In this document: piece by piece, positions 3,698 to 42,457 of the stretch | Numbering within the stretch: position 1 is the first letter of the stretch | How the letters are laid out: every line of letters begins with the position of its first letter | From: a virus | DNA length: 64,000 nucleotides | Strand: one strand, 5' to 3' | IMG/VR virus record: IMGVR_UViG_3300032214_000528 | Span: 62,001 to 126,000 of that record | Position numbers and translations under genes: made by a program | The notes under the pieces: generated by a model | Database searches by the model: none | The model's input: only the letters and a program-made list of their open reading frames with translations | What the model was told of the DNA's origin: nothing

Positions 3698-4153
3698 ATG
3701 CTAGACAAGACAAAGCAAGTGCAAGGACTCACAGTTTATGCTGAGTTCTCTAAAGAGGGATTTCGCACAGAGTTCTTTATGACTCCCGACGGATTTACTC
3801 CCGAAGGAACACCAGTTCCTGCAAAGGTTTATCGCAGAGTTCTCTCTGCTGATAAGCCAAAGAAGTTGTGGTCTGCCACGACTCTACGACCAGCCACAGA
3901 AATCGCCGAGATTGGCGTAAAGGATTTGGCTGACTCAGATAAAGAAACCTACATTGAGAAGCGCACCGAAAATCTAATGCAGATTTTTGAGGGCTTTATC
4001 TCAGGTGGTTGGACTATTGTAAATGAGCCATTTCTAATCGAAACTTCTCAGAAGGATTTGGTAGAAGTAGCAAAGGGAGAAACACCTATCAAAGTTGTTT
4101 ATCGTATCAACCAAAGCAGAAAAGCATTGGGCTTTCCTGCTGAGATTGCTTAG
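3698..4153 (+). CDS. Hypothetical protein of MoxR/VWA operon
   Basis: 151 residues. It has a mixed alpha/beta pattern with an N-terminal Lys-rich segment, MTPDGFTPEG, and several Trp/Glu-rich helices. It is not recognised as a family. It is first in a block with the MoxR-like ATPase 12 bases downstream and the VWA protein, so it is probably a substrate, adaptor or third component of that remodelling system (inference from order only). Confidence 0.8.
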   Translation: MLDKTKQVQGLTVYAEFSKEGFRTEFFMTPDGFTPEGTPVPAKVYRRVLSADKPKKLWSATTLRPATEIAEIGVKDLADSDKETYIEKRTENLMQIFEGFISGGWTIVNEPFLIETSQKDLVEVAKGETPIKVVYRINQSRKALGFPAEIA

Positions 4154-5224: not shown

Positions 5225-5249
5225 TTCCCTGCTAGATGTTGGCTAGTGG

Positions 5250-5279
5250 GGTGGGGGCTTCATGGGTGTAGCCCTCACC
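5250..5279 (+). other. 10-bp hairpin downstream of MoxR gene
   Basis: GGTGGGGGCT and AGCCCTCACC form a stem with a 10-base loop and no T-run. It may reduce read-through or stabilise the MoxR transcript end. Confidence 0.4.
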
Positions 5280-5318
5280 TACCACTCAGGGGTAAAAGCG
5301 AGGGAAAGCTTTGACTCC

Positions 5319-5331
5319 TACGATCAAAATT
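5319..5331 (+). repeat. TACGATCAAAATT repeat, copy 2
   Basis: Direct copy of the 13-base sequence at 3540. It lies in the gap between the MoxR-like and VWA genes. Confidence 0.6.
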
Positions 5332-5366
5332 CGCAGGACTCACCTAGAGGCAGATAGCCCTAGATG

Positions 5367-5395
5367 TTGCAGGTAGATAGTTAAAAGTGTATGAT
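5367..5395 (+). promoter_or_regulatory. Promoter of VWA gene
   Basis: TTGCAG (5367-5372), a 17-base spacer, then TATGAT (5390-5395). This allows separate expression of the VWA gene. Confidence 0.75.
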
Positions 5396-5442
5396 AAACC
5401 TATCGTTGGACACACGATACAAAAGAGAAAAGGACGAACGAC

Positions 5443-21514: not shown

Positions 21515-23215
21515 ATGGGTATTTTCACCAACGACGATTCCACACCAGTCACACCCGCTCCTAAAAAATCTGCCCCGTCAGCTTTATCTACTATTTTTAC
21601 ATCTAACGCACAAACAGTTGCCTACTCAACTCCTCGGGCACTTACTGCTGCAGCAGCGCAGTTAAAAGTTAATGACAAGGGAGAATACGAACAGTTTAGA
21701 ATTCGTCGCTCTGCAGGTTCATCTGCATGGCAAGCCGAAGCTTGGGAGTACTACGACGCAATCGGTGAAGTTAAATATGCTTTTAATCTTGTAGCATCAG
21801 TTGTTTCACGAATTAGAATTTATGCAGCAGTAATTGATGATCCAGCAGAGGCACCAGTATCAGTTCGCAACTCAGACAAAGTCGATGATCGTCTTGCACA
21901 AGCAGCAGAACGTGCATTAGATAGGTTAAACTCTGCATATGGTGGACAAGCAGGATTACTTAAAGATGCAGCTCTCAATCTTTCAGTTGCGGGTGAGTGC
22001 TATCTCGTACAAATGCCCGCTCGTCCAGGACACGGTCTTCCTGAGTCTTGGGATATTCGTTCTGTTGACGAAGTAACAACAGATCCAAAAGGTGGCTTCA
22101 ATGTCATTGGTCGCCGTGAGCAGGGATCTAACTCACAAAGCTCTAACACTAATTTAAATACAAAGCTTGGTAAAAATGCATTTATAGGACGCATCTGGCG
22201 TTCACATCCTCGTTATTCAGATGAAGCAGATAGCTCTTTAAGAGGTTTGCTTGATCTTTGTGCTGAACTTCTTCTATTGAATAGGACATTCCGTGCGACT
22301 GCTCGTTCTCGCCTTAATGCTGGCGCTCTTTATCTCCCAGATGGTCTTTCGGTTGCGGCGCAAGCGGATCCAGACTACCCCTACGATTCTGAGGATGGTA
22401 TCGGCCCAAACTTTACTGCTGAAGAAGCAGAGGACGAATTCGAAGAACAATTAATGGATGCGATGACGACTCCAATCAGAGATGAAGAGTCTGCATCAGC
22501 AGTTGTCCCACTTATCATTCGTGGCCCAGCGGAACTTGGCGACAAGATTAAGCAGTTTAAGTTTGAGCGTTCATTCGACCCAGCACTTGCACAACGTGCT
22601 GACCGTGTTCTCGAGCGCATTCTTCAGGGACTAGATGTTCCAAAGGATGTTGTAACAGGTCTTGCAAATGTTAAGTACTCAAACGCACTTCAAATCGATG
22701 AAACTCTCTATAAATCACATATAGAACCTTTGATGCTGCTTATTGCAGATGCACTAACTGTTGTTTATCTTCGTCCTTATCTTATTGCAAGTGGTTTCAC
22801 TGAAACAGATGTAAATCGTCTTGTTGTTTGGTATGACCCATCAGCAATTGCAACTCGTAATGACCGTGCATCAGATGCTGATTCAGGATTTGATCGTGGA
22901 GCAGTTTCATACGACACATGGCGTCGTGCTCATGGCTTCTCGGATCAAGATGCACCAACTCCAACAGAGATGGCAATCCGTATGCTTTCAGAGCGTGGAG
23001 TGCTTACACCAGAGCTTACAGAAGCAATGCTTGGAGCAGTTGCACCAGATGTTATGGCTGCAATACGTACTGCACAACAAGAAGCATCTGTTGCCCCGCT
23101 ACCCCCAGAGGTTGAGCAAGCACTTCAGCAAGCATCTGCAGGTGCAGAGGCAACAGGAAATGTTGCTGAATCCCCAGATGCAGAGACAGCACCTGAGGGA
23201 ACAGAGAATGTCTGA
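21515..23215 (+). CDS. Portal protein
   Basis: 566 residues. Portal-like layout: an N-terminal disordered part (residues 1-48, Thr/Ala rich), then WEYYDAIGEVKYAFNLVASVVSRIRIYA, SVAGECYLVQMP, WDIRSVDEVTTD and a helical stem near KDVVTGLANVKYSNALQIDE. It forms the dodecameric vertex channel. The Ala-rich TAAAA at 44-48 is a candidate cleavage site. Ribosome site GACGAGGAG. The order portal, then protease-like genes, then capsid supports the call. Confidence 0.9.
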   Translation: MGIFTNDDSTPVTPAPKKSAPSALSTIFTSNAQTVAYSTPRALTAAAAQLKVNDKGEYEQFRIRRSAGSSAWQAEAWEYYDAIGEVKYAFNLVASVVSRIRIYAAVIDDPAEAPVSVRNSDKVDDRLAQAAERALDRLNSAYGGQAGLLKDAALNLSVAGECYLVQMPARPGHGLPESWDIRSVDEVTTDPKGGFNVIGRREQGSNSQSSNTNLNTKLGKNAFIGRIWRSHPRYSDEADSSLRGLLDLCAELLLLNRTFRATARSRLNAGALYLPDGLSVAAQADPDYPYDSEDGIGPNFTAEEAEDEFEEQLMDAMTTPIRDEESASAVVPLIIRGPAELGDKIKQFKFERSFDPALAQRADRVLERILQGLDVPKDVVTGLANVKYSNALQIDETLYKSHIEPLMLLIADALTVVYLRPYLIASGFTETDVNRLVVWYDPSAIATRNDRASDADSGFDRGAVSYDTWRRAHGFSDQDAPTPTEMAIRMLSERGVLTPELTEAMLGAVAPDVMAAIRTAQQEASVAPLPPEVEQALQQASAGAEATGNVAESPDAETAPEGTENV

Positions 23216-24185
23216 CGCAAAAGCCCCTAAGAAAGATCAAATCAAAGGTTCTAAGAAAAACGCTAAAGGATCTGCATCAGGTTCTCGTAAAGTAGTTTTT
23301 TCTAAAGCAGTTGAAAAATCTCTTGCAGATAAAGTAGCAACTCACAACGAGAAAGCTAGAGAAGGCCGTCGTGCAACTCTAGGAATGCTCAAGGCTGTCT
23401 ATCGCCGTGGTGCAGGTGCTTACAGCACTTCACATCGTCCCGGTATGACTCGCAACCAATGGGCTATGGCTCGTGTTAATGCATTTTTGAAGATGCTCAA
23501 GTCTGGTAAGCCAGCGAACTCAGCTTACAAGTCAGATAATGACTTGCTCCCAGCAAAGCATCCTCGTTCAACAAAGAAGAACAACTCAATCACTGCTTCG
23601 GCTGGATTAGTTCCAGAAGAATCAGACCTAGCTAATGCTCTCATTGAGATCGCTGAGAAGTATGGAAAGTTCAACGAAGATGCAACAGGAATTTGGGCAG
23701 GATACACCCCAGCCGCAGAAAATAAATACAAAGGAATCGGAGTCAAGTGCTCTAGCTGTGTTCTATACATGGGTAACGGCTCGTGCAGAATCATCGAAAC
23801 AGAAGTCGAAGACGAAGGTAAGTGTCGTTTCGCGGTTATCCCAGATGGGGTCGTTGATGTCGGAGTTCTCGAAGGCGAAAAACTCGGAAACGAAATCCAA
23901 TCCTTAGAAGAGCTTGCACAGATTGCTGAAGAATATAGATTTGAACAAGAGTTGGCAGTAGAGATACTTCCTGAAGAAGAATACGACTCACCAGAACACG
24001 CTATTCTTTCTTTAGCAGAGTTTTCAGGGTTTGGTTATGAAGCAGAGCATGCAGTTCGTGCATCTTGGCTTCGTGGAGTTCGCAGCGGTGACGATCCATT
24101 CAAAAGAGCATCTAATTTTGCAATACTAGGTTATGAAAGCTTAGATTCAGATTTGTTACCTAAAAAGGGAGAAGATAATGTCTAA
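23208..24185 (+). CDS. Head-module protein with Cys-box and DLLP motif
   Basis: 325 residues, starting in an overlap with the portal stop. Basic, Lys-rich N-terminus (residues 1-50), then a helical region (RATLGMLKAVYRRGAG, MARVNAFLKMLKSG), a motif NDLLPAKHPRST followed by NSITASAG (126-133), an acidic region, and a Cys box (CSSCVLYMGNGSC). The DLLPxxHPRST-TASA combination recurs in the giant downstream protein. Likely a virion or scaffold-associated protein; no enzymatic call. Confidence 0.8.
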   Translation: MSDAKAPKKDQIKGSKKNAKGSASGSRKVVFSKAVEKSLADKVATHNEKAREGRRATLGMLKAVYRRGAGAYSTSHRPGMTRNQWAMARVNAFLKMLKSGKPANSAYKSDNDLLPAKHPRSTKKNNSITASAGLVPEESDLANALIEIAEKYGKFNEDATGIWAGYTPAAENKYKGIGVKCSSCVLYMGNGSCRIIETEVEDEGKCRFAVIPDGVVDVGVLEGEKLGNEIQSLEELAQIAEEYRFEQELAVEILPEEEYDSPEHAILSLAEFSGFGYEAEHAVRASWLRGVRSGDDPFKRASNFAILGYESLDSDLLPKKGEDNV

Positions 24186-27100
24186 GAAGAATCAGAGACA
24201 GCTTCACGTTCTCTCTCAAAGCGAGACTACATACAGCACTCGTCAACAAGCACGTCTAATCCGTAACGAAGCACTACAAATGATTGAGGCAGCTAATGAA
24301 TTTACAACTAACACCCGTAGAGTTAATCGTCGCTCAGCTTTCCGTGTCATTTCTCGCTCTCTTCATTCTTCTGAAGGTCTCCCATTTTCAGTTCGTAAGC
24401 ACCAAGCGCTCACAGAACTCTCAAACTACATCTCACTTGCAAAACACAACAAGGTAGTTGGCTTAACAGCATTTAACACCGATCTTCTTCCACTTACACA
24501 CCCACGTTCGACTCGTGAACACTCTATGACGGCTTCAGCGATGATTCGTTCACATATTCAATGGGTTACAGATGATCCACGAATCACAGATGAGAACGCT
24601 AAGGCACTTATTGCATCTGCAATGCTTGCTCCAGCTAACTCTCCAGAAAAACTTTATGCACTTACACGCTTAGAGAACCTTCCACAAGGCCATGTTCCAC
24701 TAGAAGCAATGACTGCAGCATATGGTGGAGGAAACTCTGCTGCTGCAAAGCGTGCTCGTGTTGCTCTCCAGCTCCGCGACCGTTTGGGCCGCTGGGTTGA
24801 GATGTTTGGTGGCCTTGGTATCAAGGTAAAGCGTCGTGACGGAAGCACAGCAGCTCTTACAGGTCGTGCAGTAGGGCAGAACATCTTTAGTCCACAACTT
24901 GCAGATGTCGAATTAGAAGATGGACGCATTGTTGCAGTACCAATTCGTCAAGCACGAGGTGCAACATTCCTTCCAAGCCCTGCAGCAAAGAAAGATGGCT
25001 TTACACCTGCTGGTTCAACAGCAGATGACATGGATGACCCAATTATCGATGAAGCAGATCTTACATTTATGGAAAGTCCTAGCTCATTTGAGAAAGATGA
25101 GAGAGGAAGCAAGCAGGGAACAACAAAATATACTGATCAAGCCTACGATGTAGTTAAGTTTGATGATAACAAGCGTGCTCTTGCAGATTTAAGTGAGACA
25201 AACAAACTTAGAGCAGAGCGTGACTTAGACGATGCAGCAGTTGATAAGCAAGGCGAGACAGATCCAGACTCAGGTAAGCAATTTTGGGATCCAGAGAAGC
25301 CAATCTATGCAGTCTCACGTCGTGGCGGAACTCCTTTTGCATATACACAGAACTGGAACGATGCACAGCAAAGAATTCAAGCAGATCAAAGATTCCTTGA
25401 TGAAGAAGAGGGTCGTACACCTCTTGCGAGAATTACTCAGGATGACAACACTCCTGAAGACGAGACTCCACTTGTAGATCAGCAAGATAAGTTTAAGAAG
25501 GAAGAGATCGCACGTCTTCCAGAACAAGAAACAACAAAAGCTCCATCTGATTTTAAATACAAAGTTCCAGAAGATACTTATGAAGTATCTGATCCAACAG
25601 CGCCATACCGCTCCGTATCTGAGTATGACGATCCTGCATCTCTTGCAAATATGTTCCAAGGTGATGAGCTCATTGATGGTCTTGATGATGCAATGGATAC
25701 TGGTCTTGGTCGCCTCACATTCCCAGATGGAACAGATTCAGATGGAGAACCTACTGGTGGAGAGCAAGAAGTTCCAGCAGAAGCAATTCTTAAAGCAATT
25801 GATGAAAAGGGCGGGGATGCAGAACTTGCACTTGCTCAAGCATACGATAAGCGTCTAGGGACAACAGAAAATGAAGACGCACTTGCTGCAAAGCGTGAAG
25901 CAGATAGAGGAGCAAAGGTTGGCGAGCCAAAGAAGCTCGGCGAAGTATTCGACGAAGTAACAAAGGCTCCAGAGCCAGAAGCAGAAGCACCAGTTGAAGA
26001 AACTCCTGTTGCAGAGATCCCAGAGATTACTGAAGATGCAGAGCCATCCACATATCCAGCTCTAATTGATGGACTTACAGAAGAAGAGCAAGCAGAGTTT
26101 GAGAAGAGCAAAGACTACACTCCATATCTCACAGAAGATGCTCCAGTCGAGTGGCCAGAAGGTTTTACACCGCCACAAAATAGAATTCTTAGCGAAAAAG
26201 AGCGTGCACAAGCTTTAGAAATTGCTAGCTCAGATATTCCTGACGAAGATCTAGCCGAGTCATACAACGGTGCAATCAAAAATAAATATGACGAAGATGG
26301 TTATGCACCATTTGGTGATTTAGACGAGAACAACGAAGTGCAGACAATTCAAGTACCAAGTGAAGTTCTTCGTGATGCAATGAAGCTTCGCAACTTTGAC
26401 ATGGACGAAACTAATCAACAGGTTGTTGACGGAACTTGGGATGAAGTAGACCCAGAAGATGAAGTTGCATTGGAAGAAGAACCTGTAGCAGAGATTCCTA
26501 CACCAAAGACTCCAGATGAAGGCAAGGGAACTAAGTCTGGCAAAGATCCTCTCAAGGAAGGTTGGGGATCGGAAGACTGGATTGACGAAACATCTAAGGA
26601 TCCTCGTTTCCACGAGATGCTTAAGAAGAATAAAGATTTTGCAAGACTTACTGGTTTCTTTAACGATCCAACATTCGATAGCCCTCTTCTCTCTGACTAC
26701 CAAGACAAAGATATGGAAGGCTTTGAGTCTGGCAGTGAAGTAGAGGCAATCGATCTTGGCGAGTATGGGTTTGAACCAGGACCTTCAGCCCGTGTTCAGT
26801 ATGCACTTGATATTTTGCAAGATCCTACACAATCAGCTCGTGCTGGTTTCAAGGACTGGAGAACTGGTGAGCGCTCAGCAGAGAACGAAAGAAATATTCT
26901 CAAGGCAGCAGATGAGCAACTAGATCTTGCTAAGCAGGATCTCTCTGAAAAAGATGTTATTGAAAACAAAGCAATTGATTCTGTCCGTGCAACTCTTGCA
27001 AAAGAAATTGCAAAGCTTGACAAGCAGATCGAGAAAGATAAGAAGGCTGAGGAAGAAGCAAAGATTGCTCCTCAGGTTTCTTACAAACTAAGAGGAGATC

Positions 27101-30100
27101 GCTTAGAGCTTCGCTCTGGTAAGAAGGCTCCATTCAGAAGACAAGATGTAAAAGACTTTTTAGATGATAATGGTTTTGATTGGAACCCAGATGCTAAGGC
27201 TGAAACAAAATCTGGTATGGATGAAGCAAGCGCTAAGAAGTTCCTTCGTGATTTAAGAGATAAATATGGTATTGATCTTCTTCCAAGAGAAGGACAGCCA
27301 CCAATCGACCTTGAATCAAAGGACGAAGTAATTGAAGCTCCTTCAACTCCTGAAACTCCATCTGCAAAGCCAAAAGAAAAGTCTCTCAAAGAAAGAGAAG
27401 AAGAAGAGTTCGGTAAGTTCTTACCTCTTCCAGATCCCTTACCTGAAGGTTGGGTAAAAGATGAAGAGCGTGGATTCAACGAAGTTTATTACATGCAAGC
27501 TGTTGAAAACGAAAACGGCGATAGAATTGTTGGAACATACGGTAAGGATGGAAGTAGAGACCCATACTGGACAGTAAGCGCTGACTTTGACTCGCCAGAA
27601 TCATTTAAGTCTTTTGAAGATGCACTTGATTTCTATAACAAAAATTCTGGAAAGCAAACAGAAGACAGTGCCGAACCAGAGACTTCTGAAGACACAACAC
27701 CTGTTGAAGATGTAGTTGAGCTATCCCCTACTCTAAACGAAAAATTACTAAAGCGTGATGGCATCCAGATGGTAAAGATCACTGGCCCAAATGGAGAAGA
27801 GATTGAGACACCAGTCTTTAATCTTCGTGGTCGCCCTATGGTTTTAATCAATGTTAATGGTGTACGCATACCGTTCTACATTAGCTCGGGTAAAGGCGGT
27901 AAAGCAGGTGTTCCTGTTGGAAAGTGGTATCCAATCTTTGGAATCGGTACCGATGGCTGGTTTAATAAGGGCAACGAAGAAGAGATTAACAACTACTTCG
28001 ATAGTCCAGAGCTAAGAGAGGTAGCTGAATGGCTTAACTCTAATATTGGAGATATCCGTAAAGAAGATATGCCAGAGTCTGACGAAGTCACTGACGAGCT
28101 TCGTGCACAGATAAACCAAGACCTATCTCCAGGTCGTTACTATGAAAACGCTGTTGTCTACGGAAATAGAGCTCTTGCCCTTGCAAAAATTAGGGGAGAT
28201 GAAGAAGCAGTAAAACAAGAAGAAGCAATTCTTAAAAAATACCTAGACGATATAGCAAAATTTGAAGCTGAAAAGAAAAAGCAAGAAGAAGAAGGACAGG
28301 AAGAGCCAACTGTAGAAGAAGTAGTTCCTGAAGAAGAAGAAGTAAAAGAGCCTGTTGCTGAAGAACCTGCGGCAAAAAGGAATATCTTCCAAGAATCACT
28401 TGACATAATTCAAGAGGGACTTCTTGATGCATTGTCAGAAGAAGGTCCTAACATAACTGTCTCAGAGTTAGTAGATAGACTGAAGCGTAAGCTAAAGGGT
28501 GATGACAAAGTTGTAGGAGATTATGGCACTAGAGGTGACATGATTAGCAAGCTCATGTGGGCTAAGTGGGGCGCTGGTTTCTGGAGAAACGAATCTCCAT
28601 ACATTAGAAGATCCATGAGCGAATACAAGTCTGAATTAAAGAAGCTCTCAGACGAAGAACTTATTGCATTAGTTGATATGTATTACGACGAGATTGATGC
28701 TCGTCTTGAAGCTGAGAGAGAAGCATCACGACCAGTTGAACCAACGCCGCTTACTCCTGAAGAAGCTGCGGAAGTAGAGAGAAAGCGTAGAGTTAAAGAG
28801 CTTCGTGATAAGAAGCGCAGAGAGCGTGAAGACAAGCTTCTAGAAGAAGATGATAAGGCTAAGGAAGAAGAAGAAAAGCCAACCCCTGCAACCCCTGCAA
28901 CCCCTGCAACCCCTGCAACCCCTGCAACCCCTGCGAAGCCAACTCCTACAACCCCAGAAAAGCCTAAGCCATCTGATTACGAAGAAGACACTCCTGATGG
29001 ATTTGTTTATGTTGACAAGAGCGACAATGACGTTAAAGATGGAGATGAAATTAATCTCCCTAGTGTTGGCTGGGTAAAAGTTAAGAGAAAGGTTTTCCTT
29101 CCTGGTAGAACCACTGCAGATGTTGTCTATGAAGATGAAAATGGTAATGAAGGTACTGGTTTCTTACCTAGAACAGTTGAGACTCGTGCTAAGCAAGCTC
29201 CTGCTGAAGAACGCAATCGTAAGACTCCAGCAAAGCTTAGAGTCGGAGAAGAAGTCTATCTTGTTGATAAAGATGGAGATGGTCCTGGCTGGGTAAAGGT
29301 TCTAGAAGTAAAAAAGAGAAATTGGAATTCAGGGAACAGTAAAGGCGACCAAACCACATGGGAAATATGGTACGAAGATGCAAATGGAAAGCGTAGTCTT
29401 TGGACATATAACTACTGGAGCAGTAGCAGTTGGGGCGGAGACGGTCAAACTGGTAAGTTCCCTACTCGTCCTGCAACATCTAAAGCACCAGAACCTGTAG
29501 AAGAACCTTCAGTAACAGTTACGCCTCGCATTGCTGCATCTAGAACAACAGATCTTAAGCCAGGCGATGTTATGACTAAGGACTTCTTTACAGTCACAAA
29601 TGTAGAGCAAGGATTCGAGAAGAAGCGTGATGGAGAAATGGTTCCAGCTTCTCGTGTCACTGGTTACTATCCTGGCGGAGTAGAGCAGTCAAGCAAGCTT
29701 TGGGCAGACGACGTTTTATTTGATGTATATCGTGATGTAACTCCTCCTGCAAAGGGAGATCTTCCAGAACTTAATCAGCCAAAGATGGGTGATTATGGAA
29801 AGCTCACAAAGGTCAATGGCGAATGGGAGCTAAAAGACCCAGCTGAGCAAAAGCAATTTGAACAAGACATGGAAAAGTATCAGGAGCAACTATCCACACA
29901 GAAGGCTCTTTGGGAAGCTCCAGTTGTTGAAGTTCCTGTAAAGGAATTTACACCTGAAAACACTCTCCACGTTGTCAACGCACTTGGTAAAGATCTCAAG
30001 CCAAACGATATTGCATTCCGTCGTGACGAGAATGGTGAGCTCAGCGAGTTTTTCGTTATTGAAGAAGTTCTTCCAGGCACAGTTATGGTCCCTCGTGCAG

Positions 30101-33100
30101 ATGGAAAGCCAGCAGAAGAGAAGGTTCAAATCCGTGGATACTATCCAGGACACGAATCACAAGTTAAGTCTTGGAAGACTGGCACATCTGTTGAAGTTCT
30201 CCGTGGGGAACAAGCAGCAAACATTCCTGCAAAGGGTGATAAGCCAGCAATCGATAGCATCGAGCCAGGAACTCTCAAGGGTCAGGCATACAAAGATAAG
30301 AACGCAGAAATTTCAGCATTAAGAAAAGAAGCTGGCAAGGCATACACACCTGATCTAACAGCCTCAGAGATTCCTGCAGTACTTGTAGAAAGACCTAATA
30401 GCTTTAATCGTGGAAACCGCCCAGCGTTCTTTGGCAAGGCTGCAGAACTTGCAAACCTCAAAGATGGTAAAGCAATCTCTGATGCTCTTAAGGGCAAGCG
30501 AGTTGTCTACTTCGACTTTGAAACAGTAGGAACTGGAAAGTTTGATAACGACAATCCTGATGCACCAATTCAGGTTGCAGCATCTGTCTGGGAAGGTGGA
30601 GAAAAGGTTGGAGAGATCAACCTATTCATTAACCCAGGAGAGCCTCTTGGGGACTATTACTATAAAGAAGATGAAAACGGAAACAAAGTTCTTGATCCAG
30701 AAAAGCTTCTCAGCTCAGACGGGCAGACAGTTGATGATGCATTCTTAGCATCTCAACCATCTATTGAAGATCAGCTTCGTGCATTTGCAGAGTTTGCTGG
30801 ACAAGATGCAATCTTTGTTGCACACAATGCAGAGTTTGATACAAACACATTCGAGAAGTGGGCTCAGAAGCTAGGTATTGACTACAACATGGATGGTGTT
30901 ATCGATACTCTTGAATTAGCAAAGAGCATGACACCAAAGGGCAACAAGCTCGGTCAAGTTGCTAAGCGCTACGGTATTGAGAAGACAGATGAAGAGTGGC
31001 ACGATGCTAGAACTGACTCTGAGGTTCTCCCAGCAATCCTAGAAGGTTTGCTTGGAGATATGAAGCCTGACAATAGAGAGTTTGATCCTGCAACTCGTCT
31101 TGCAGAGTTTGAAGCTAAGCGTTCTTCTTACAATGAAAAGCTAGAAGCATTTAAGAAGCAAGAAGCAGATCTTGCTATGGCTGAAGCAGTCAAGCGTGGT
31201 ATGGCTGGAGAGCCTGTATCTATTGATGAAATGCTTGGCAAGACCAAGACAACATCTGGCTTTGGTTCTGAAGGAAGCACAGACTCTGCTGAAGAGTATG
31301 CATATGAATCAATCTTTGGTGGAAAGATTAACAACTCTTGGATCGAAGATGATGAAAACACATTCGTTGTTGACGAAGGTGCAGCAACTGTAGGAGATAT
31401 TAAGATTGGTGACTTCGTACCTGCTGAGGGTGGCGGATACCATGAAGTTGTTGACCTGCTTGCAGACCCAGAAGATCCAAACGGAACTATCGTTGTTCGT
31501 AAGATTGTATCTAGCGGTTTGCTATACAGCACACGAGTTACAGAGAAGAAGTCTCCAGGAATTGGTTGGTCTAACGGCAAGGTTCTTAAGGGAACTCTCC
31601 GTCGTCGTAACGAACTAGCTGGTAAGACACCTGCAGAAGTTAAAGCTTTAGTATCTAAGCCAGTAGTAGTTGCTCCAGAACCTACAACAAAGGAAAAGAC
31701 TCCTACACCTAAGGGTAAGAAGTCAATCACTCCAGAAGAGACACAAAGTGTCGTCTCGGATGCGATTGAGGCAATTACATCTGGTGCTAAGTCAGATTCA
31801 TCTGTTGAAGATGCGGTAAAGGGTCTTCCACTTGATGACACCACTAAGTCTGCAGTTCTTGCAGATCGTGAAGATGCATCTATTAATCACCTATCAGCAG
31901 ACGGTGTTGCTCTTAAGGTTGGCGACAAGGTTCGCAACGTAAAGAATGGCCGCATGGGTGAGGTAAGAGCAATTCTTACAACATACGGACCTCGTGGATA
32001 CAAGAATTACGTCAAGGTTAAGTTTGACGATGCTGCAAAGCGTGAAAATGTTTCAGCAGGTTCACTACAGATCATTAATCCTGATGACGGTGGCGGTTTC
32101 TTCACAGATCCAACTCCTCCTGCAACTGGAGAGCCAGTAAACCCTAACGAGACACCAAAGTCTGCAGAAGAATTAACTTCACTTCTTACTGGAGATGTTA
32201 CAGATAACACTCCTGCAGTTGAAGTTCCAGAAGAGCCTGTAGTTATGGATGCTGAAGATCGAACAAGAATTTGGAAAGAAAACGAAGAAAAGAGAATGAA
32301 GTACGCTCTTGATCTTAACTATCGCCAAGTAAGCCCTGAAGCATTAGAGGCACTTACAGCAGCAGTTCAAGATATATCTCAATATGACAAGGGTCATCAA
32401 AGATCTGTTACAGCATTTATGCCAAGTCTTTCTACTGGATTGCCAGTAGAAAGAACATTTACGTTTGTAAAGCCAAGTAAAAAAGATCTTGAGCGTCGTG
32501 AGGACATGGAAGCAGACGATATTATCGTTATGATTGGTCCTCGCAATACTGAAGCAATTATTAAGTCAGATGGAAGAATTCTTTATTTTGATAATCCATC
32601 TGTTCCAAACTGGAACTTTAGTGTTAGATCTCCAGATCTATACTCAGCTATTGAAAAATCAGACGAGGTCACTTTTCCTTTAGGGGAAAATCCTGATCTT
32701 CAAAATATGGGAATGATTTCAAATAATCAAGAGTTCCCTAAAGATGCTCTTGGAAGTCCAGATGAGATAGAAGATCCAGATTTTGTTGTAGATAGCCCTG
32801 ATGCAGAGCCAAAGGGAATCAAGCCAACCAAGCAACAGCAAGCAGTTATAGATGCTGTAGTTGCTGGCAAGGATGTAATTGTTCAAGCTCTTGCTGGAAC
32901 AGGTAAGACCAGCACACTGAAAATGGCTGCAAAAGCTGTTGCAGAAAAAGATCCAGACAAAACTATTCTTTACATTGCATTTAACAAGGCTGTAGCTGCA
33001 GAACTTAATGCAGATCCAGATCGTCCTTCAAATATGATTGCACGAACCAATACTCAGGTTGCTTGGCACCATTCACCTAAGTGGATGCAAAAGCGTAGCT

Positions 33101-36100
33101 TTGACAAAACACTGCTTTCACTGCCAACTGATGTAGCTGATCATCTCGAGATCGGACCAGTTAAGGTTACAGAGATTAAGAAAGACGGATCAAAGGTAGA
33201 AGCAACTCTTTCAAGTAAAGATGTCGTTGGAGTAATTCGTCAGGCAGTAACAGCATTTGCACAGAGTGCAGATGAAAAGATTATGCCTCAGCACTTCACA
33301 GATAACTTTGTAGACATTCCTGAAGTGTTTATTGACTACGCAAACCGCTGGTGGGACGACATCTCAAGCCCTAAGGGTAAGCTAGCGATGAATCAGTCTT
33401 ACCCAGAAAAATATGTTCAGCTAAATGGCATAGATGTAACAATGTCTCCAAGTGAAGCGGGTGCAAACCCAGCAACAATGATCCCTGCAGCAGACATTAT
33501 CTTCTTTGATGAAGCACAAGATATTAATGATGTTGCTGGCGATTGGGTTCGTAAGCAAACTGTACAAAAAGTATTCGTTGGCGATGGAAATCAATCTATC
33601 TATGGTTTCCGTGGAGCAAAGGATCAACTAGATACTCTTGAAGGAGCAGATAAGCTTCAAATCACAGAGTCGTTCCGCTTCGGTCCAAACATTGCAGCAC
33701 CTGCCAACCGTTTCCTTGCTGTTGCTGGAAAGCCAGAAAGAGTTGTTGGAGCTGGAAAAGATCAAGGTAAAGTTGTAGAAAGCCTTGACGAGATGCCAGA
33801 TCCAGATGCAGTTCTTGTCCGCACAAACGGTGGTGGATTTAAGGCAATGCTTGAGTATCTTGAGCAAGGAAAGACTGTCGGAATTAGTCAATCAACTAAG
33901 ACAAGACTTGAAGAAGTTATTGACACAACAAGTTGGCTCATGGGCGGAAAGAAGGGCTCAAAGCCAGCTAAGTACAACGCAGAAATTGGAATGTACGACT
34001 CTTGGGAAGAACTCTCAACTGCAGTACGAGAAGGAAAAGCTCGTCCAGTTAAGGCTTTCTATGACTTAGTCACTCAAAACGGAATGCAAAGTATCCGTGA
34101 CATCCTAGATCGTGTTGTCGTAGAGCGTGAAGAGACTGAAGAAAGTAAGGCAGCTCGTAAATCTTACGTCCCTATTAAAATAGATGATGCATTAGATGGA
34201 TCTACAGGATCTTTAGGTTCTGGATTAAAGTACGAGGTTAAAGGTAATACGATAGTTGTAACTGGATTTACAACACCAGACCTTGCAGAAAAACTTCGTA
34301 ATGCAGGTATTCCAGCTAGAAAAACTGGAAACAAGGTTAAAAACTCTAAGGGCGAGCTTAAAGACGAATGGGTCAGAGATAAAGTAATTGAAGATGACCT
34401 TGAGAGAACAGATAAACTAAATAACATTAAAAAGGCAGTTGCTGGAATTATAGATTCAGCTTCAGCAGATGTAGTTGTAACAACAGCACATCAGTCAAAG
34501 GGTCTGCAGTGGAACAAGGTTCGTATTTATGATGACTTCTGGGGTCCAAAGTTTAATAAGGAAACTGGCGAGATTGATATGCCATCACCAGAAGAACTTC
34601 GTCTTGCATATGTAGCAGTAACTCGTGCTCAGAAAGAAGTCTACTTAGGTCCTCTAAGCTGGGTTAACGATTACACATCTGATGAAGATGAGCAAGCTTC
34701 GTTCTCTCTGGAATCAATGAATAATATTGAAACAGACCCAGTTCCTGTAACACCAGAAGAGTTTGGTGATGAAGTACAGGAAACTGCAAAGAAGATCGAT
34801 CCAGCCACTCAAAAGATTGCAGATGCAATTATTGCAGCCCTTGAAGCAGGAACTGCTCCTTGGCGTAAGCCTTGGACTGGCGGGGGATTCCTCCCAACTA
34901 GCGTTGCAACTGGCAAGATGTATGAAGGAACAAACGTTCTCGTACTCTGGGCTGCTCAAGAGCGCAATGGTTGGTCAGATAATCGCTGGCTTACATACAA
35001 GCAAGCAGAAAAGCTTGGCGGAAACATTAAGCGTGGCGAGAAGGCAACTTCAATTATTCACTGGACTCCAAAGTTCAAGGATGTCAAGCAGCCAGATGGA
35101 ACTATCGAAAAGGTATTCGTTTACACACCTCCAAAGATCATCAATGTTTTTAACGTAGAGCAAGCAGAAGGAATTAATCTTCCTCCACTTGTTAAGGGTG
35201 ATCCAATTCCAGTAAGCCAAGCAGAGCAAACTCTTCTTGACACATACAAGGATCGTCCAGAGATTTTCTACAAGTCCCAAGACAGTGCTTACTACTCTCC
35301 AGTAACTGACACAATTCACTTGCCGCTCCGTGAGCAGTTCGGTGCAGAGCAAGACATCTTTGAAACCCTAGTTCACGAACTTGCACACAGCACAGGACAC
35401 ACATCTCGTGTGAACCGCAAAGATCTTACAGATAACTACGGAACTCACAAGGCTAGCCGTGGTGAAGAAGAACTTATTGCAGAGATCTCTGTAGCATTAG
35501 TTGCTGCTCGTCTCGGCGTTGAGATTGACTTTGGAAATGTTGCTGCATACGCAAAGTCATGGCTACCAGCCGTAAAGAATGACCCAACAATGATTATCAA
35601 GGCAGCCAAGCAAGCACAAAAAGCTGTAGACCACATGCTAGGAAAGCAAGAAGAGCCAGCAAAGTTTGATGAAGACGGAAACTCAACTGAGCCTGTTGGC
35701 GAAGGTGTTGGTAGCGAAGGTTTAACTGGAGAAGAGATCTCAGAAGAGGCGGACTCAAGTGAAAAACCTAATAGTAGAGGCTATGTCCGATCAGAAATAG
35801 ATCCTACCGATTTAAAGGTTGGAGATAGATTAGATATCTCTGGGAAGAAAAGAGTCGTAGCTGTTAATGCTAGAGAAGATAAGGTTCTTGTATCTACCAA
35901 AGTTATAGGTTCTAGAGGTGGCGGGTTCGAATCTTTTGATAAAGATAAAAAAATATATGTTTGGAGAAAACCAGAAAGCGTTGGTAGCGAAGGTAAGACT
36001 GGCGACGAGATTGCAGAAGATGCAGGACTTAAGCCAGAGTCAACTCCTGAACCTAATGTAGGAGAGCAGGGTAGAACTGGAGAAGAGATTGCTCTAGAAG

Positions 36101-36780
36101 GTGATATAAAACCTGCTGGTACAAAAGGTGGACATGATCTTAGCCCTAGAGAAGTATTTAACAATAATTCAGCCCGTAGTGATCGAGATGTTAAAAAAGT
36201 ATATGGTGCAGAAGAAAAATGGACGCCTCAAATACAAAAACCTTTTAAACGACCTGTTGCCCCTAAACGTGCAGATTTTCCAGATTCAGACTCATATGTA
36301 GCAGCTTATAAAAAATACTCTAAAGAGTTTGATAACGCCTACCGTGAAAGCTCAACATATATTGAATCTCCAATAGGAGAAAAAAACCTAGACGGGTCTG
36401 CAAAAGGTGTTAAAAACTATGTAGAAGATATAATCACTGCTGATTGGTTTGTAGAAGCCTTTGGTGACGGAGGACAAATGGGCAGACCCCCAGTCAGTTT
36501 GATCACTAGTAAAAAAGCAGGTGGTAAATATACTTATGGCTTTAAAAATGGTAAATATATGTCATCACTAAAAATTAACAGCCTTTTATCAACAAATGAA
36601 CCAGCTATTCTTCACGAGATTGCTCATTTTGCTACAGCAATTAGCGTGGCAGAGGGATTTGATGCTCATGGTGTAGAGTACAGAATGAATTATATCTATA
36701 TCACTGATAAAGTACTTGGTCGTGAAGCTGCAGAAAATCTTAAAGACGCTTACAGAAAGGACAATCTAAATGTCGGATGA
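24178..36780 (+). CDS. Giant polyvalent head-module protein
   Basis: 4200 residues. N-terminal [11 protein letters not shown] and HSMTASAM (115-122), then a LRDRLGRW small domain (about 200-262), and long acidic linkers with KOW/SH3-like modules (two LKPGD.../LKPND... copies near 1790 and 1940). A DEDDh exonuclease has D2113/E2115, H2216-D2221 and H2275-D2280. An SF1 helicase has GTGKT (2907-2911), FFDEAQD (3109-3115) and a C-terminal AVTRAQ near 3480. ArdC-N (about 3538-3666) is followed by a zincin HELAH (3733-3737), three VGSEG-type repeats and a second zincin HEIAH (4146-4150). It overlaps genes at both ends. Likely packaged and delivered with DNA to process or protect it. Confidence 0.88.
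28881..28934 (+). repeat. Tandem 9-bp coding repeat (AACCCCTGC x6)
   Basis: Six perfect copies of AACCCCTGC encode TPA x6 in the linker of the giant protein, between charged and Pro-rich segments. A likely site of slippage in copy number that keeps the frame. Confidence 0.9.
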
Positions 36781-36885: not shown

Positions 36886-37011
36886 ATGGCTAAGTCAGAT
36901 AAAGAGCAATACAACGATGCCGTCGTTGCTGCTTATCGCAAGATTATCGAGCTAGCAGAGGTTGACCCTAATGCTGACTCTTATGAGCCTGAGGATGAGG
37001 AAAAGCTATGA
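36886..37011 (+). CDS. Small acidic protein
   Basis: 41 residues with a helix (AVVAAYRKIIELAEVD) and an acidic tail. Starts two bases after the previous stop and ends in an ATGA overlap with the next gene. Confidence 0.7.
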   Translation: MAKSDKEQYNDAVVAAYRKIIELAEVDPNADSYEPEDEEKL

Positions 37012-37730
37012 GACTATCTAACGCTAAGTCCTATCCACTTGAGGGTATGTCTCTAATATATGCAAACGGTGAGAATGTTGTTTACCAAGCTGTATTTTCT
37101 ACAGAGAAGTTTGGTACTTTTACAAGAGTAGATGGCCAATGGCTTGCCTTATCTCCAGAAGATACTAGCCTTGAAAACCTTTCAATCATGGATATCCTCC
37201 CTGCAGACTACAAAGTAGTCACAGATATGTTTGATGCGGCTCAAAAGGCAAAGACTTATCTTAAGTATGATCAGGTAAAAGATTACGAAGTTGCATACTC
37301 TTTTGAAGAAAGCGGGAAGTCTATGACTGCCGCAGTTGAGACATCTGAGGGATGCCCTCCTGCTACATCAGACATTGCAGTCAATCTAGCAAACAGAGAA
37401 AATGCTATTAAAACTGCTGGTTATGGGCCAATGAATCCAGCACTTCCAAATAACAAGTTTTGGCAAGCAAAGACAGACCGTTGGTCTGTACCAGTAGAAG
37501 ACGCTAAGAAATCCTTGTGTGGAAACTGCGCTGTATTCATTCAAACACCAAAAATGCTTGACTGTATTGCTTCTGGACTTGGAAACGAAGCTGGAAATGA
37601 TGCTTGGGGCTCAATCGAGGCTGGCGATCTAGGGTATTGTGAAGCATTCGACTTTAAATGTGCAGCTTCTAGAACATGCGATGCATGGGTAGCTGGCGGA
37701 CCAGTAACTGAGGAGTCAGGAAAAGTATGA
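37008..37730 (+). CDS. Head-module Cys-box protein
   Basis: 240 residues. A Trp/Asp-rich N-terminal half, then KSMTAAVET (104-112), then a Cys-rich domain: LCGNCAVF, CIASGLG, CEAFDFKCAAS, CDAW. The Cys spacing resembles the iron-sulfur or zinc-like CGNC...C...C box sometimes carried by phage head proteins near the protease. The two halves joined by a candidate cleavage peptide suggest processing. Overlaps the next ATG. Confidence 0.78.
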   Translation: MRLSNAKSYPLEGMSLIYANGENVVYQAVFSTEKFGTFTRVDGQWLALSPEDTSLENLSIMDILPADYKVVTDMFDAAQKAKTYLKYDQVKDYEVAYSFEESGKSMTAAVETSEGCPPATSDIAVNLANRENAIKTAGYGPMNPALPNNKFWQAKTDRWSVPVEDAKKSLCGNCAVFIQTPKMLDCIASGLGNEAGNDAWGSIEAGDLGYCEAFDFKCAASRTCDAWVAGGPVTEESGKV

Positions 37731-40700
37731 TGCAATTCATTGGTCGTAATGGAACTAGAGCCCTTTTTGTTTCAGAAGACAAAGGCGTTGTTGTTGACGA
37801 CTCTGTAAACATTGTTACTGCTCTAGACATTAAAGAACCTCTTCTAGCATCTTTTGAGTGGGATTCAAAGGGAGCTCGACCAACTGACACAGCAGTAGAG
37901 CTTGCAGCCGCTGCTTTAACATCTCTTGATATCAAAGTATTTTCAAATAATGACCGCATGTATACAATCCCAGACTCTGTTATTGCAGAGGCAAAGCGTG
38001 GACTTGCATGGCGTAAGGAAGAAGATCGTGGTGGTACTTCAGTAGGTCTCAATACTGCTCGCACACTTGCTCGTGGTGGACAGATTGGTATTCGTAAGGT
38101 TCGTCATATTGCAAAATACTTCCCGCGTCATCAAGTAGATAAAAAGGGAACTGGCTATAAGCCGGGACAAAAGTCTTATCCATCTAACGGCCGTATTGCT
38201 TGGGCACTTTGGGGTGGAGATGCCGCAGAGCGTTGGGCATCAGCAATCGTAGAGCGTGAAAATAAAGCAGCAAAGTCAAATGCAATGCTTGCTTATGGAT
38301 ACGAGTCATACGAGCATGAAATGCCTAAAGCAGTTGATTATGACTCATTTATTACTTCTAAGACAATGCCTGAAGATAATGTAATTGAATTTTTTGTTCG
38401 TATTCGTATGGATGGTTCTGGTATTGATCGCCTTTACCGTATTGAGCCAAACGGCTTGATGTATGTATGGGATGACGGCAACTGGGACGATATGGGAAAT
38501 CCAGACAACGACCATGGTAGCTATGACAAGATGTTGGATGATATTGAGGATACTGTTCCTAAGACACACATGCCAGTTGATACAGAAACAGCACTTCTTA
38601 TTGCTGCTCTTCTAGACAACGAGCCTTTGATTGCTCACAGAATTGACAAGATTCAACCAGAAGAGCATAAGATGATTGTTGATGCTCAACCAGAAATCGA
38701 CTGGGAATTAATGGATGAAATTATCATGCCAGATGAAGAAGCATTTATGTGGGACATGGATGACTCGCTAACTGCAGCAGGAGAGGCTCCAACAAATCAA
38801 GATGGAGAATATACACCTGAAGAGCGCTCAGCAAATGCTGGTGCACAGCTTCGTGATAAGACAGGCAAGTTTGCCAAGATGGGTGGCCGAGTAGTGATCG
38901 GTGGTCGTCCTAACTATCAAGGAAATATTCGTTCTATTGACAATGTAACAGGTAATGTAAAAATTGAATTAGATAACGGAAATACTGTTGATGTAAGTGC
39001 AAAACTTACAGAGCCATTAGATACTTATGTACCTATTCCTCAAGGATTTGCTGAAGGCGAGCTAGATACAAATGGAATCCTTGGAGAGCCTCGCACTCCT
39101 ATGGATTCTCCAATCCGTATGCCAGGAACTTTACCTTCACTTAATGCTGAAAGCTTAAATAAAGTACTTACTGATTACCCGTCTTGGGTGTCTGATCAAA
39201 GACTTTCTCCAGACGTTGCAGCTAAGCCAAGCGGTATAGATATGTCTGGTCCTGCTGCTAAAAGTGCAAATCCTTTAGAGAAGTACTATTCAAAAGTTAG
39301 TCCTTCTGATATGCCTAGAAAAGCAGTAAATGCTTACAACATTCCTATTCTTAAAAAATGGCTTGAATCAGGTCCAGAATATAGAAGAGCCCGCAATCCA
39401 CTACTAAATCCCTACACAGATGCAAAGGGAGCAGATAGTCCTTTCTTGGATAAAAAAGGAAATCCTCTAAAAGCTTCGGCTGAAAAGTCAACACAAATAA
39501 CTCCAACAACATCTGATGTTCCAGTTATTCACTTGGCAGTAGTTTCTCCAGATGACCCGCAAGCTGTTATGGATTTAGTTGCCTTAGTACCAACAACAAA
39601 CTCTTCAACAGAGCCAACTACTTTTACTCGTAAAGACGGTAAGTGGATTCCAGAACCACAAATTCTTTCAGACCTTCGTAGCGCAACTCCGCCTCCAGTA
39701 GTAGTTCTAGACGACACCAATCTTGTGGATGTCTTAGAGCAGGTAGATGGTAAGAAGTCTATTACAGCAGCAGGTGGAGCAGACCGTAATCGTGGACAAG
39801 CAGAGAAGCTTCGTCGCTACTGGACTTACGGCAAGGGTGCAGCAAAGATTCGTTGGAAGACTCCAGGAGATTGGACTCGCTGCTACAAGCAACTTGCTAA
39901 ATACATGGGTCCTCGTGCTAAGGGCTATTGCGCCTTGCGTCACAAGGAGATGAATGGCTACTGGCCAGGAGATCGTAAGAATCAAGAGACTTCTAACTTT
40001 TCTGTCAATACTATGCGTTCTTATGACGAACTTCTGAGCACTTTTGTTATGAGAGCCAAAGCAGCAGATGCTAAGGCTAGAGTCTTAACAGCTGGTGGAT
40101 ATGAGTCAGACGAGACTGCAAAATCTAAGGGTTCAGAGTTTCTAATCCCTCTTGTCATCCCTGAGGGCATGGAGTCTGGCGACGGAAGAATTATGAGAAA
40201 GGGTGCTCTTGATATTAGAGAACTTCCTCTACCTCTTCTATGGCAGATTAAAACAGGCGAAGGACATGACGGTTCTGTCGTAGTTGGTCAGATTACTAGT
40301 ATGGAAAGAACTGACGATGGCATTGGAAATGCTAAGGGTCACTTCGATACTGGCGAATATGGTAAGGAAGCCGAGCGCTTAGTGCGTGGTGGTTTCATTA
40401 GAGGAGTATCAGCTGACCTAGATCAGTTCGAGGCCGATGATGAGCGCAAAGAGGAAGAAAACGGATCTGACACTAAGGTAGATGCGGGTAAAATTACTAT
40501 CACAAAAGCACGAGTCATGGCTGTGACTATCGTGCCTAAACCTGCTTTCCAAGAGTGCACAATTCAGCTTGCAGATGATGCAAGCGTTGAGGAGGATGAA
40601 GTGAATATTCCTGACGGAGTTTACGTCGAGGGAGTTAATGCTCTGGAAGCTTCGGCTCTTGTTGCATGTGGAATGATTGCTGGAGCAATTCCAGTAACAC

Positions 40701-42457
40701 CACCAACCGAGTGGTTTAACGATCCACAACTTAAGGGACCTACACCTCTAACTGTAGATGACGATGGCCGAGTATTCGGACACATTGCTGCATGGCACGT
40801 CGACCACATTGGTATGACAGCAGGGACTAAACCTCCTCGTAGCCGTAGCAAATATGCCTACTTCCATACTGGAGTAGTTCGCACCGATAACGGAACAGAT
40901 GTTCCTGTCGGACAATTAACTCTTGCGGGGGGACACGCTGGACTAGAAGCATCAGCTTCCGAAGCAGTTCGTCACTACGACGACACAGCATCTGCTATTG
41001 CAGATGTCCATGCTGGAGAAGATGCTTATGGTATTTGGGTAGCTGGATCAGTTCGTCCAGGATCAACCCCAGAACAAATTCGTGCGCTTCGTGCATCAGC
41101 ACCATCAGGTGACTGGCGCCCAATTAAGAATTCCCTTGAACTGGTTGCCGTATGTCAGGTAAATGTTCCAGGATTCCCAATTGCTCGTGCTCGTGTGGCA
41201 TCAGGTCAGGTAATGGCTTTGGTTGCAGCAGGTGCAAGCACTCTTGCAATGCTTAAGAACGACCCACTTGCAGAACTTAATGCTCGTATTGCCGATCTTG
41301 AAGGCGATAAGAAGATGGCGCTAGTTGCTTCTGCTAACGATGTCCGTGCTCGCTTCGAGACAAACCGTATGGAAGTTCTTGCTGCTAAGAAGCTAGAGCT
41401 TGCTGCAAAAGTTAAAAAAGTTAAAGAAGACGCAGATCAAGATATTGACTACATGATCCAGATGATGGATGATGATCCAGAAAATGAAATGGCAGTTATT
41501 TCCCGCCGTGTTCGTGAACGCCTAGCTCAAGAAGGTAAGGCTCTAAACGACGGTTCATTCCCTATTAGAAATACTGGAGATTTAAAAAACGCTATCCGTG
41601 CTTATGGCCGTGCAAAGCCGGGAAGCCGTGGCAAGGTAAAGCGCCACATTATGAAGCGTGCTATTGGTCTTGGTAAGGAAGAGCTAATTCCAGAAAACTG
41701 GAAGGGTGCTGCTTCAAATCTAGATGAGATTGTTGCATCAATGAAGTTCCGCACTGAAGAGTTTGGAGCTCGCCTTGGAGCAGAGTTTGCAACCAATTCT
41801 GAAGCAGTTTTTGCAGAACAAATTACAGAGGAAATTGTCGACTTAAGCCCTGAAGAAATTGAAGTTTTGAAGCAAGAAGCCAAGGCTCGTGAAGAAGGTA
41901 GAGCAACCGATGGTGAAGCTCCTCCAGAAAGAGATGCTGACGGCCGTATTAAGTACACAGCCGAAACCCAACCTCGTGATGCAACTGGAAAATTTAGAAC
42001 AGTTCTAGCCCGTATCAAACAGGACCTCGGAACCTCTGGTTTGCAGAATGTATTGGATAAGGTTAAAGAAGCAGAGAACTTTGATAGCACTGGCGACTAC
42101 GCTGGAGCAGCCAAAGCAGCAGGAGATTTGATCTCAATTATTGATCGATTGGACTCTGGAGCGCTAAATGCTGAATCTTTAGAGAATGTCCGAAATAGCG
42201 CAGGTGAGCTTGGAAAGGTTATTGCTAACCTACCGTTTGCTTTTGGCGAGGAAGCTCAGAAGATTCGCTTCTCAGATGTTCCACCAGCTCTTCGTGATCT
42301 TATGGAAGATATGATTAAAAAGGTAGAAGCAAAGATTGGCAAGGAAGATGCCGATATTGCCACTGCTGAACTCAAGACATTCATCTCAGGAAGCGAGCTC
42401 TATAACCAATCAGAGATCTCATCCCAGATGGCAAAGCTTCTTAGGTTACTTACCTAA
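37727..42457 (+). CDS. Fused capsid-maturation protease polyprotein
   Basis: 1576 residues. N-terminal ~100 residues are followed by LARGGQIGIRKVRHIAKYF and an alpha/beta module. Acidic linkers contain DSLTAAGE (346-353), SITAAGG (678-684) and LTAGG (787-791). The protease region (about 800-950) has LPLLWQ, GHDGSVVVGQI (likely catalytic His), RGVSADLD (likely Ser) and ITKARVMAVTIVPKPAF, the HK97/S78-like prohead protease pattern. After it come an AAWHVDH.../GLEASASEAVRHYDD domain, GDWRPIKNSLELVAVCQVNVPGF and a coiled, scaffold-like C-terminus with RDATGKF. It cleaves head proteins during maturation. Confidence 0.88.
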   Translation: MMQFIGRNGTRALFVSEDKGVVVDDSVNIVTALDIKEPLLASFEWDSKGARPTDTAVELAAAALTSLDIKVFSNNDRMYTIPDSVIAEAKRGLAWRKEEDRGGTSVGLNTARTLARGGQIGIRKVRHIAKYFPRHQVDKKGTGYKPGQKSYPSNGRIAWALWGGDAAERWASAIVERENKAAKSNAMLAYGYESYEHEMPKAVDYDSFITSKTMPEDNVIEFFVRIRMDGSGIDRLYRIEPNGLMYVWDDGNWDDMGNPDNDHGSYDKMLDDIEDTVPKTHMPVDTETALLIAALLDNEPLIAHRIDKIQPEEHKMIVDAQPEIDWELMDEIIMPDEEAFMWDMDDSLTAAGEAPTNQDGEYTPEERSANAGAQLRDKTGKFAKMGGRVVIGGRPNYQGNIRSIDNVTGNVKIELDNGNTVDVSAKLTEPLDTYVPIPQGFAEGELDTNGILGEPRTPMDSPIRMPGTLPSLNAESLNKVLTDYPSWVSDQRLSPDVAAKPSGIDMSGPAAKSANPLEKYYSKVSPSDMPRKAVNAYNIPILKKWLESGPEYRRARNPLLNPYTDAKGADSPFLDKKGNPLKASAEKSTQITPTTSDVPVIHLAVVSPDDPQAVMDLVALVPTTNSSTEPTTFTRKDGKWIPEPQILSDLRSATPPPVVVLDDTNLVDVLEQVDGKKSITAAGGADRNRGQAEKLRRYWTYGKGAAKIRWKTPGDWTRCYKQLAKYMGPRAKGYCALRHKEMNGYWPGDRKNQETSNFSVNTMRSYDELLSTFVMRAKAADAKARVLTAGGYESDETAKSKGSEFLIPLVIPEGMESGDGRIMRKGALDIRELPLPLLWQIKTGEGHDGSVVVGQITSMERTDDGIGNAKGHFDTGEYGKEAERLVRGGFIRGVSADLDQFEADDERKEEENGSDTKVDAGKITITKARVMAVTIVPKPAFQECTIQLADDASVEEDEVNIPDGVYVEGVNALEASALVACGMIAGAIPVTPPTEWFNDPQLKGPTPLTVDDDGRVFGHIAAWHVDHIGMTAGTKPPRSRSKYAYFHTGVVRTDNGTDVPVGQLTLAGGHAGLEASASEAVRHYDDTASAIADVHAGEDAYGIWVAGSVRPGSTPEQIRALRASAPSGDWRPIKNSLELVAVCQVNVPGFPIARARVASGQVMALVAAGASTLAMLKNDPLAELNARIADLEGDKKMALVASANDVRARFETNRMEVLAAKKLELAAKVKKVKEDADQDIDYMIQMMDDDPENEMAVISRRVRERLAQEGKALNDGSFPIRNTGDLKNAIRAYGRAKPGSRGKVKRHIMKRAIGLGKEELIPENWKGAASNLDEIVASMKFRTEEFGARLGAEFATNSEAVFAEQITEEIVDLSPEEIEVLKQEAKAREEGRATDGEAPPERDADGRIKYTAETQPRDATGKFRTVLARIKQDLGTSGLQNVLDKVKEAENFDSTGDYAGAAKAAGDLISIIDRLDSGALNAESLENVRNSAGELGKVIANLPFAFGEEAQKIRFSDVPPALRDLMEDMIKKVEAKIGKEDADIATAELKTFISGSELYNQSEISSQMAKLLRLLT

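Follow-up and report, generated by a model that had tools for sequence, protein, structure and literature searches.

We analyzed a 64,000-nucleotide stretch of viral DNA, hereafter the window (bases 62001-126000 of the 135,031-base virus record IMGVR_UViG_3300032214_000528), in which a single open reading frame (ORF) of 4,200 amino acids (aa) lies inside the head operon. A preliminary description of this giant gene had proposed that it encodes a polyvalent protein that is packaged and injected with the phage DNA. The operon reads portal, DUF5824 protein, giant, 240-aa protein, protease polyprotein and major capsid protein, and the frame sits between portal and maturation protease genes as had been described:

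21515..23215, plus strand: portal protein (phrog_776, E 5e-111; 70% identity to the portal of Actinomycetia phage DSL-LC01)
23220..24185, plus strand: portal-adjacent protein, 321 aa (Pfam DUF5824)
24178..36780, plus strand: giant polyvalent protein, a single ORF that is intact in most relatives
37008..37730, plus strand: cysteine-containing 240-aa protein of the same operon (46% identity to DSL-LC01 WJZ48512)
37727..42457, plus strand: capsid maturation protease polyprotein, 1576 aa (phrog_18402, phrog_3244)
38819..39013, plus strand: second copy of a 75-aa module, within the protease polyprotein (hidden Markov model (HMM) E 4e-21)
42620..44707, plus strand: major capsid protein with an acidic delta domain (phrog_777)

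The overlap with neighboring genes that had been noted earlier is also real. The start of the giant frame overlaps the portal-adjacent gene by 8 nucleotides (nt), and an ATG at 36770 starts the next frame 11 nt ahead of the giant's end. Given these overlaps and the purine-rich, ribosome-binding-like sequence that precedes the ORF, the giant gene looks translationally coupled to the head genes. The features of the giant itself, with residue numbers counted along its chain, are as follows:

24235..24729, plus strand: N-terminal helical domain, residues 20-184, candidate capsid-address region (AlphaFold predicted local distance difference test (pLDDT) mostly 80-94; 44/44 portal loci)
24526..24540, plus strand: MTASA, residues 117-121, candidate maturation-protease site of a motif class common to head proteins
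24730..24963, plus strand: 75-aa head module, residues 185-262 (HMM E 7e-30)
29548..30267, plus strand: two tandem SH3-like repeats, about residues 1791-2030 (profile map; AlphaFold/Foldseek, weak)
30505..31029, plus strand: DEDDh 3'-5' exonuclease, residues 2110-2284 (PF00929, RNase_T, E 9e-15; PolC/DnaQ exonucleases in PDB)
32818..34647, plus strand: superfamily 1 (SF1) UvrD/FBH1-like helicase, residues 2881-3490 (phrog_1967, E 3e-72; FBH1 9xzj, E 1.5e-23)
34804..35070, plus strand: ArdC N-terminal domain (ArdcN) binding single-stranded DNA (ssDNA), residues 3543-3631 (PF08401, E 2e-29)
35272..35613, plus strand: MPTase-PolyVal zincin of ArdC, residues 3699-3812, with HELAH at 3733 (PF18818, E 3e-28)
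36475..36777, plus strand: second, C-terminal zincin-like segment with HEIAH at 4146, a motif kept in relatives

The domain search that had been proposed as a check was run against Pfam, PHROGs and, by sequence, PDB. It recovered the exonuclease, the SF1 helicase and the ArdC-like domain in all three, with PHROGs agreeing with the Pfam calls, and the catalytic motifs of these enzymes, earlier described as intact, are unbroken in the window copy. The exonuclease has its DxE, D and HxxxxD motifs (FDFET, HNAEFD and HDARTD); motifs 2 or 3, as patterned, are unmatched in some distant relatives. The helicase matches UvrD-helicase (residues 2885-3148) and UvrD_C (residues 3426-3490) in Pfam and contains the Walker A, DExxD, motif III and C-terminal motif VI signatures of SF1A helicases. 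Homology to ArdC is full-length and covers both domains (PDB 6i89_A residues 10-284, E 1.5e-47; 6sna also, E ~1e-47), and the zincin motifs HELAH and EELIAE are both present. The activity predicted for the ArdC part is anti-restriction. Matches in PADLOC came down to generic DEDDh and GajB-type UvrD similarity with no defence locus, and we rejected a link to an anti-phage defence system.

Two labels in the preliminary description had to be narrowed. It had named two zincins; that of ArdC stands, while the second, for which a Pfam search returned no family, is a motif-level assignment because it is based on conservation of HEIAH. Two dissimilar HEIAH versions of this C-terminal segment swap at the same position among the window and its relatives (G002, G006, G015 and G018-G020). 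It had also named several SH3-like modules, a label that we examined at the tandem repeat. There, an AlphaFold model of one repeat region (residues 1781-2095) gave beta barrels with a pLDDT of 78, and their best PDB neighbors were eIF5A/EF-P, with a probability of 0.9-0.99 but E > 0.05, which is suggestive of an SH3-like fold at this one repeat.

The N-terminal ~260 residues of the giant consist of two modules common only to the giant and neighboring head proteins. Residues 36-121 are homologous to residues 39-128 of the portal-adjacent protein (hhalign E 2.8e-6), and an HMM of the giant N-terminus matches the portal-adjacent protein in about 75 loci (E 1e-6 to 1e-9). This homology stops in both proteins at a TASA motif, which reads ITASA in the portal-adjacent protein. 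The second, 75-aa module recurs in the protease polyprotein, the only other copy that a whole-record HMM search found in the window's genome record. In the whole records searched, copies were confined to the head operon. The module occurs exactly twice in 13 of the 14 single-operon records having it (11 virus records, Pumpernickel and Arthrobacter phage Racecar), three times in DSL-LC01, all within the head operon, and four times in a contig with two head operons. Copies sit in the giant and the protease polyprotein or, in Racecar, in gp78 and gp80, the latter just before the protease gene. The same search did not find the module in Gordonia phage Forza. Foldseek returned no significant PDB match for the N-terminus, and its neighbors among viral models, at E 0.03-0.3 and probability 0.91-1.0, were too weak to give the fold a name (XkdF, ChaB and prohead-protease proteins were among them); the alignment used for structure prediction leaves out the DSL-LC01 row.

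Related phages retain this N-terminal region while the cargo behind it changes. A scan with a portal profile yielded 80 loci, and giants were counted in the 44 distinct ones whose sequence runs 3 kb or more past the portal; each of the 44 has, directly downstream, a giant gene that shares this N-terminal domain and the module. We searched cargo domain models in 27 virus records and found helicase, ArdC-N and zincin in 15 and the exonuclease in 25. Beside this helicase/ArdC lineage, an exonuclease-only lineage has the exonuclease, the SH3-like repeats and other shared regions and lacks helicase and ArdC, and further giants differ again. The exonuclease model found no match in G010, G024 or DSL-LC01; Racecar and Pumpernickel encode the exonuclease as a separate gene. 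G010 and G024 have none of the exonuclease, helicase, ArdC-N and zincin domains by these models; one of the two has a weak PI3/PI4-kinase-like match, as does Pumpernickel gp82. All that the Racecar giant has in common with the window giant is the 75-aa module and a homologous helicase. Two medium-sized genes replace the giant in Forza (L005 15693-21225), and one of them encodes an ADP-ribosyltransferase domain and an RNA-ligase-like region, content which suggests that the giant's locus may be a general cargo locus. We looked for a single enzyme common to all giants and rejected the idea, as even the commonest, the exonuclease, is missing in some.

A separate observation concerns G007 (IMGVR_UViG_3300047564_003843), a 160.7-kb contig with two different portal-giant-protease operons near its ends (L047, L061), which is either a chimeric assembly or two joined phages.

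The cargo domains are also maintained by selection. When viral contigs were scanned with the helicase region, seven loci emerged, two of them apparently identical in sequence, whose giant frames are open over 3,548-4,258 codons. The ratio of nonsynonymous to synonymous substitution rates (dN/dS; Nei-Gojobori, window giant versus six relatives) was determined for the exonuclease (0.04-0.13), the helicase (0.09-0.21), ArdC (0.03-0.16) and the N-terminus (0.06-0.19). The catalytic domains, at 0.03-0.21, are under purifying selection far beyond chance. The linker at 826-1800 is hypervariable and full of indels, with a relaxed dN/dS of 0.27-0.52.

The TASA motif belongs to a class, [ILMV]TA[AGS][AG], that recurs in the head proteins. 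In every close lineage the capsid protein carries it where the delta domain meets the HK97 fold, with VTASA (268) and ITAGA (296) as junction motifs that are conserved across lineages. In the protease polyprotein, LTAAG, ITAAG and LTAGG stand at 348, 679 and 787, directly ahead of three conserved blocks, and the portal, the portal-adjacent protein and the giant (117-121) carry motifs of the same class. The non-capsid head proteins hold 6 such motifs in 6,663 residues versus 5 in 29,529 residues elsewhere in the sampled genome (Fisher p 0.008, a post hoc enrichment test). The window giant has a TASA-type motif once only and none between its enzyme domains; of 34 giants, 20 have a strict or relaxed form where this site aligns.

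We interpret the giant as a head-packaged, injected polyvalent protein, a reading to which we assign a probability of about 0.7. The preliminary description had drawn packaging and injection from gene position; both are still inferred, yet they are now better grounded, because the N-terminus is made of head-operon modules and the giant lies downstream of the portal in every locus counted. The N-terminal region fits a candidate capsid address on exchangeable cargo, by analogy with the targeting sequences of T4 and P1. During prohead assembly, the N-terminal modules would dock the giant to the protease/scaffold core and load it into the prohead along with the protease, and the maturation protease may remove the first ~120 residues by cutting at MTASA. 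The remainder of the chain would stay with the DNA until it is ejected into a new host, around which point its own zincins may cleave it, and the ejected enzymes would act ahead of phage gene expression. The ArdC part would coat exposed ssDNA and blunt restriction, and the FBH1/UvrD-like helicase and DEDDh exonuclease would act on genome ends by unwinding, trimming or repairing them, and might also strip off recombination proteins of the host. Of the two functions that the preliminary description had offered, DNA protection fits ArdC, while a role in replication is less direct because the phage encodes its own Prim-Pol/D5 primase-helicase.

A more general proposal, which we would put at somewhat less than even odds, is a modular capsid address system. 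Here a transferable N-terminus of ~260 residues, comprising a protease-trimmed helical propeptide and the 75-residue module also found in the protease polyprotein, would load interchangeable multi-enzyme cargo of roughly 1,600-4,200 residues into phage heads across a large clade of actinobacterial phages, most of them uncultured.

Several points weigh against packaging and injection. A literature search found no published virion proteomics for any of these phages, and a chain of 4,200 aa must cross the portal and tail unfolded or be cut. The preliminary description had set frameshifts in relatives beforehand as a check, and this was largely passed, because most relatives carry an intact giant frame; the frame is interrupted in a few contigs (G004/L100, L025, L033 and L057), and conservation continues on either side of the interruption in G004 and L033. 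We offer trimming by the maturation protease as a hypothesis, because the TASA motif was picked after the data had been seen and the exonuclease-only lineage is without it at the aligned position, which also led us to reject a universal cleavage site. The earlier analogy to delivered ArdC-type proteins carries a caveat as well. The ArdC of R388 works if made in the recipient and donor expression is of no help, its export is neither needed nor excluded, and its peptidase activity is dispensable (PMC7213743); by analogy, that study supports action in the receiving cell.

A structural role in the head would account equally well for the shared N-terminal modules. If the giant were mainly a structural or scaffolding protein, its acidic linkers and SH3-like repeats would fill the prohead core with the enzymes as passengers, which suits the module it has in common with the protease polyprotein as well as its low-complexity acidic stretches and repeats. 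Against this, the catalytic domains and their intact active sites are under strong purifying selection, while the linker at 826-1800 is hypervariable; we regard this explanation as improbable. We give a better, if still poor, chance to a late intracellular protein of DNA metabolism or packaging, whose helicase, exonuclease and ssDNA-binding parts would resolve or trim concatemers at the portal while DNA is packaged, with no injection. The head-operon position and shared head modules suit a factor acting at the portal, and exonuclease and helicase are DNA-end enzymes; but anti-restriction of the ArdC type and polyvalent-type zincins would be expected at entry rather than at packaging, the terminase is encoded at another place in the genome, and no packaging role is conserved, because many relatives do without helicase and ArdC altogether.

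The giant could instead be a polyprotein that the maturation protease and the zincins cut into separate enzymes late in infection, for use in the same cell. Its two HEXXH sites and TASA motif are in keeping with this, and zincin self-processing of polyvalent proteins has been proposed (PMC5512222). Yet enzymes freed late in a dying cell would presumably come too late for anti-restriction, and the lone TASA-type motif does not separate the enzyme domains; we rate this the least probable of the alternatives.

Packaging and injection of the giant would have precedents. The polyvalent-protein class and the idea of its injection were published in 2017 (Iyer et al.; PMC5512222). The giant combines at least two unrelated activities in one chain, has ArdC-N and MPTase hubs, and has its gene among those for virion proteins in a portal-terminase phage; all sequence criteria examined make it a polyvalent protein in that sense, with delivery alongside the DNA predicted. 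It resembles the published examples in its many disparate domains, with ArdC-N beside an MPTase zincin, in its place among virion genes and in the predicted injection. It differs from them in a two-part N-terminus common to the protease polyprotein and portal-adjacent protein, and in combining a DEDDh exonuclease, an FBH1-like SF1 helicase and ArdC.

Compared by description, the giant is also like DarB of the P1 Dar system, a 250-kDa anti-restriction protein whose ORF lies beside portal and prohead protease genes and which is packaged via an N-terminal capsid-targeting signal (PMC9024508). However, the DarB signal spans at most 30 residues with no consensus among Dar proteins (PMC9024508), as against the giant's ~260-residue region common to head proteins. 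In T4 internal proteins and Alt, and in the ejection proteins of SPN3US and phiKZ-like phages, likewise compared by description, an N-terminal propeptide directs the cargo to the prohead and is removed by the prohead protease; the propeptides of SPN3US inner-head proteins are 124-127 residues long (PMC5694885). Sites in those systems end in E (PMC5694885), whereas the giant's candidate motif is TA[SAG][AG]. The ArdC of plasmids pSa and R388 (PMC7213743) is homologous over the ssDNA-binding and zincin domains but is a separate protein needed in the recipient, with no enzyme fusion, and is not a virion component. The nearest counterparts are Racecar gp78 and DSL-LC01 WJZ48510, giant genes that occupy the same position and contain the module, with annotations that go no further than 'DNA helicase' and hypothetical, respectively. 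The former has the homologous helicase and the latter the whole N-terminus; ArdC and the RNase_T exonuclease were not found in either giant.

As far as we have checked, three things are new: the two-part shared address region, its confinement to proteins of the head operon, and the pattern of constant address and variable cargo in a large, mostly uncultured clade. Within one operon, a homologous signature joins the giant cargo to the portal-adjacent protein and the maturation protease, providing a testable candidate loading signal. For the P1 Dar proteins no common signal was found (PMC9024508). The giant's region offers a candidate for how huge chains enter the head, and searching for the address instead of the cargo is a route to further injected effectors in uncultured phages.

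The closest named phages are DSL-LC01, which was metagenome-assembled from Dishui Lake (PMC10611076), and Microbacterium, Arthrobacter and Gordonia phages. From these, the host is probably an actinobacterium, and probably a freshwater one. Elsewhere, the sampled genome encodes terminase, the Prim-Pol/D5 primase-helicase and a B12-dependent ribonucleotide reductase. Both neighbors of the giant, the portal-adjacent protein (23580-24185) and the 240-aa protein (37008-37730), contain CxxC cysteine clusters that possibly bind metal or iron-sulfur clusters, and the DSL-LC01 homologue of the 240-aa protein is annotated as a high-potential iron-sulfur protein. At 4166-7221 of the window, an AAA+ (MoxR/dynein-type) ATPase adjoins a VWA/CoxE-like gene in a MoxR-VWA-like pair. 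Outside the window lies a complete flavin-dependent tryptophan halogenase-like gene (G000:C1:43156-44730, equivalent to L114:3156-4730; PF04820, E 1.6e-106), which is unusual for a phage.

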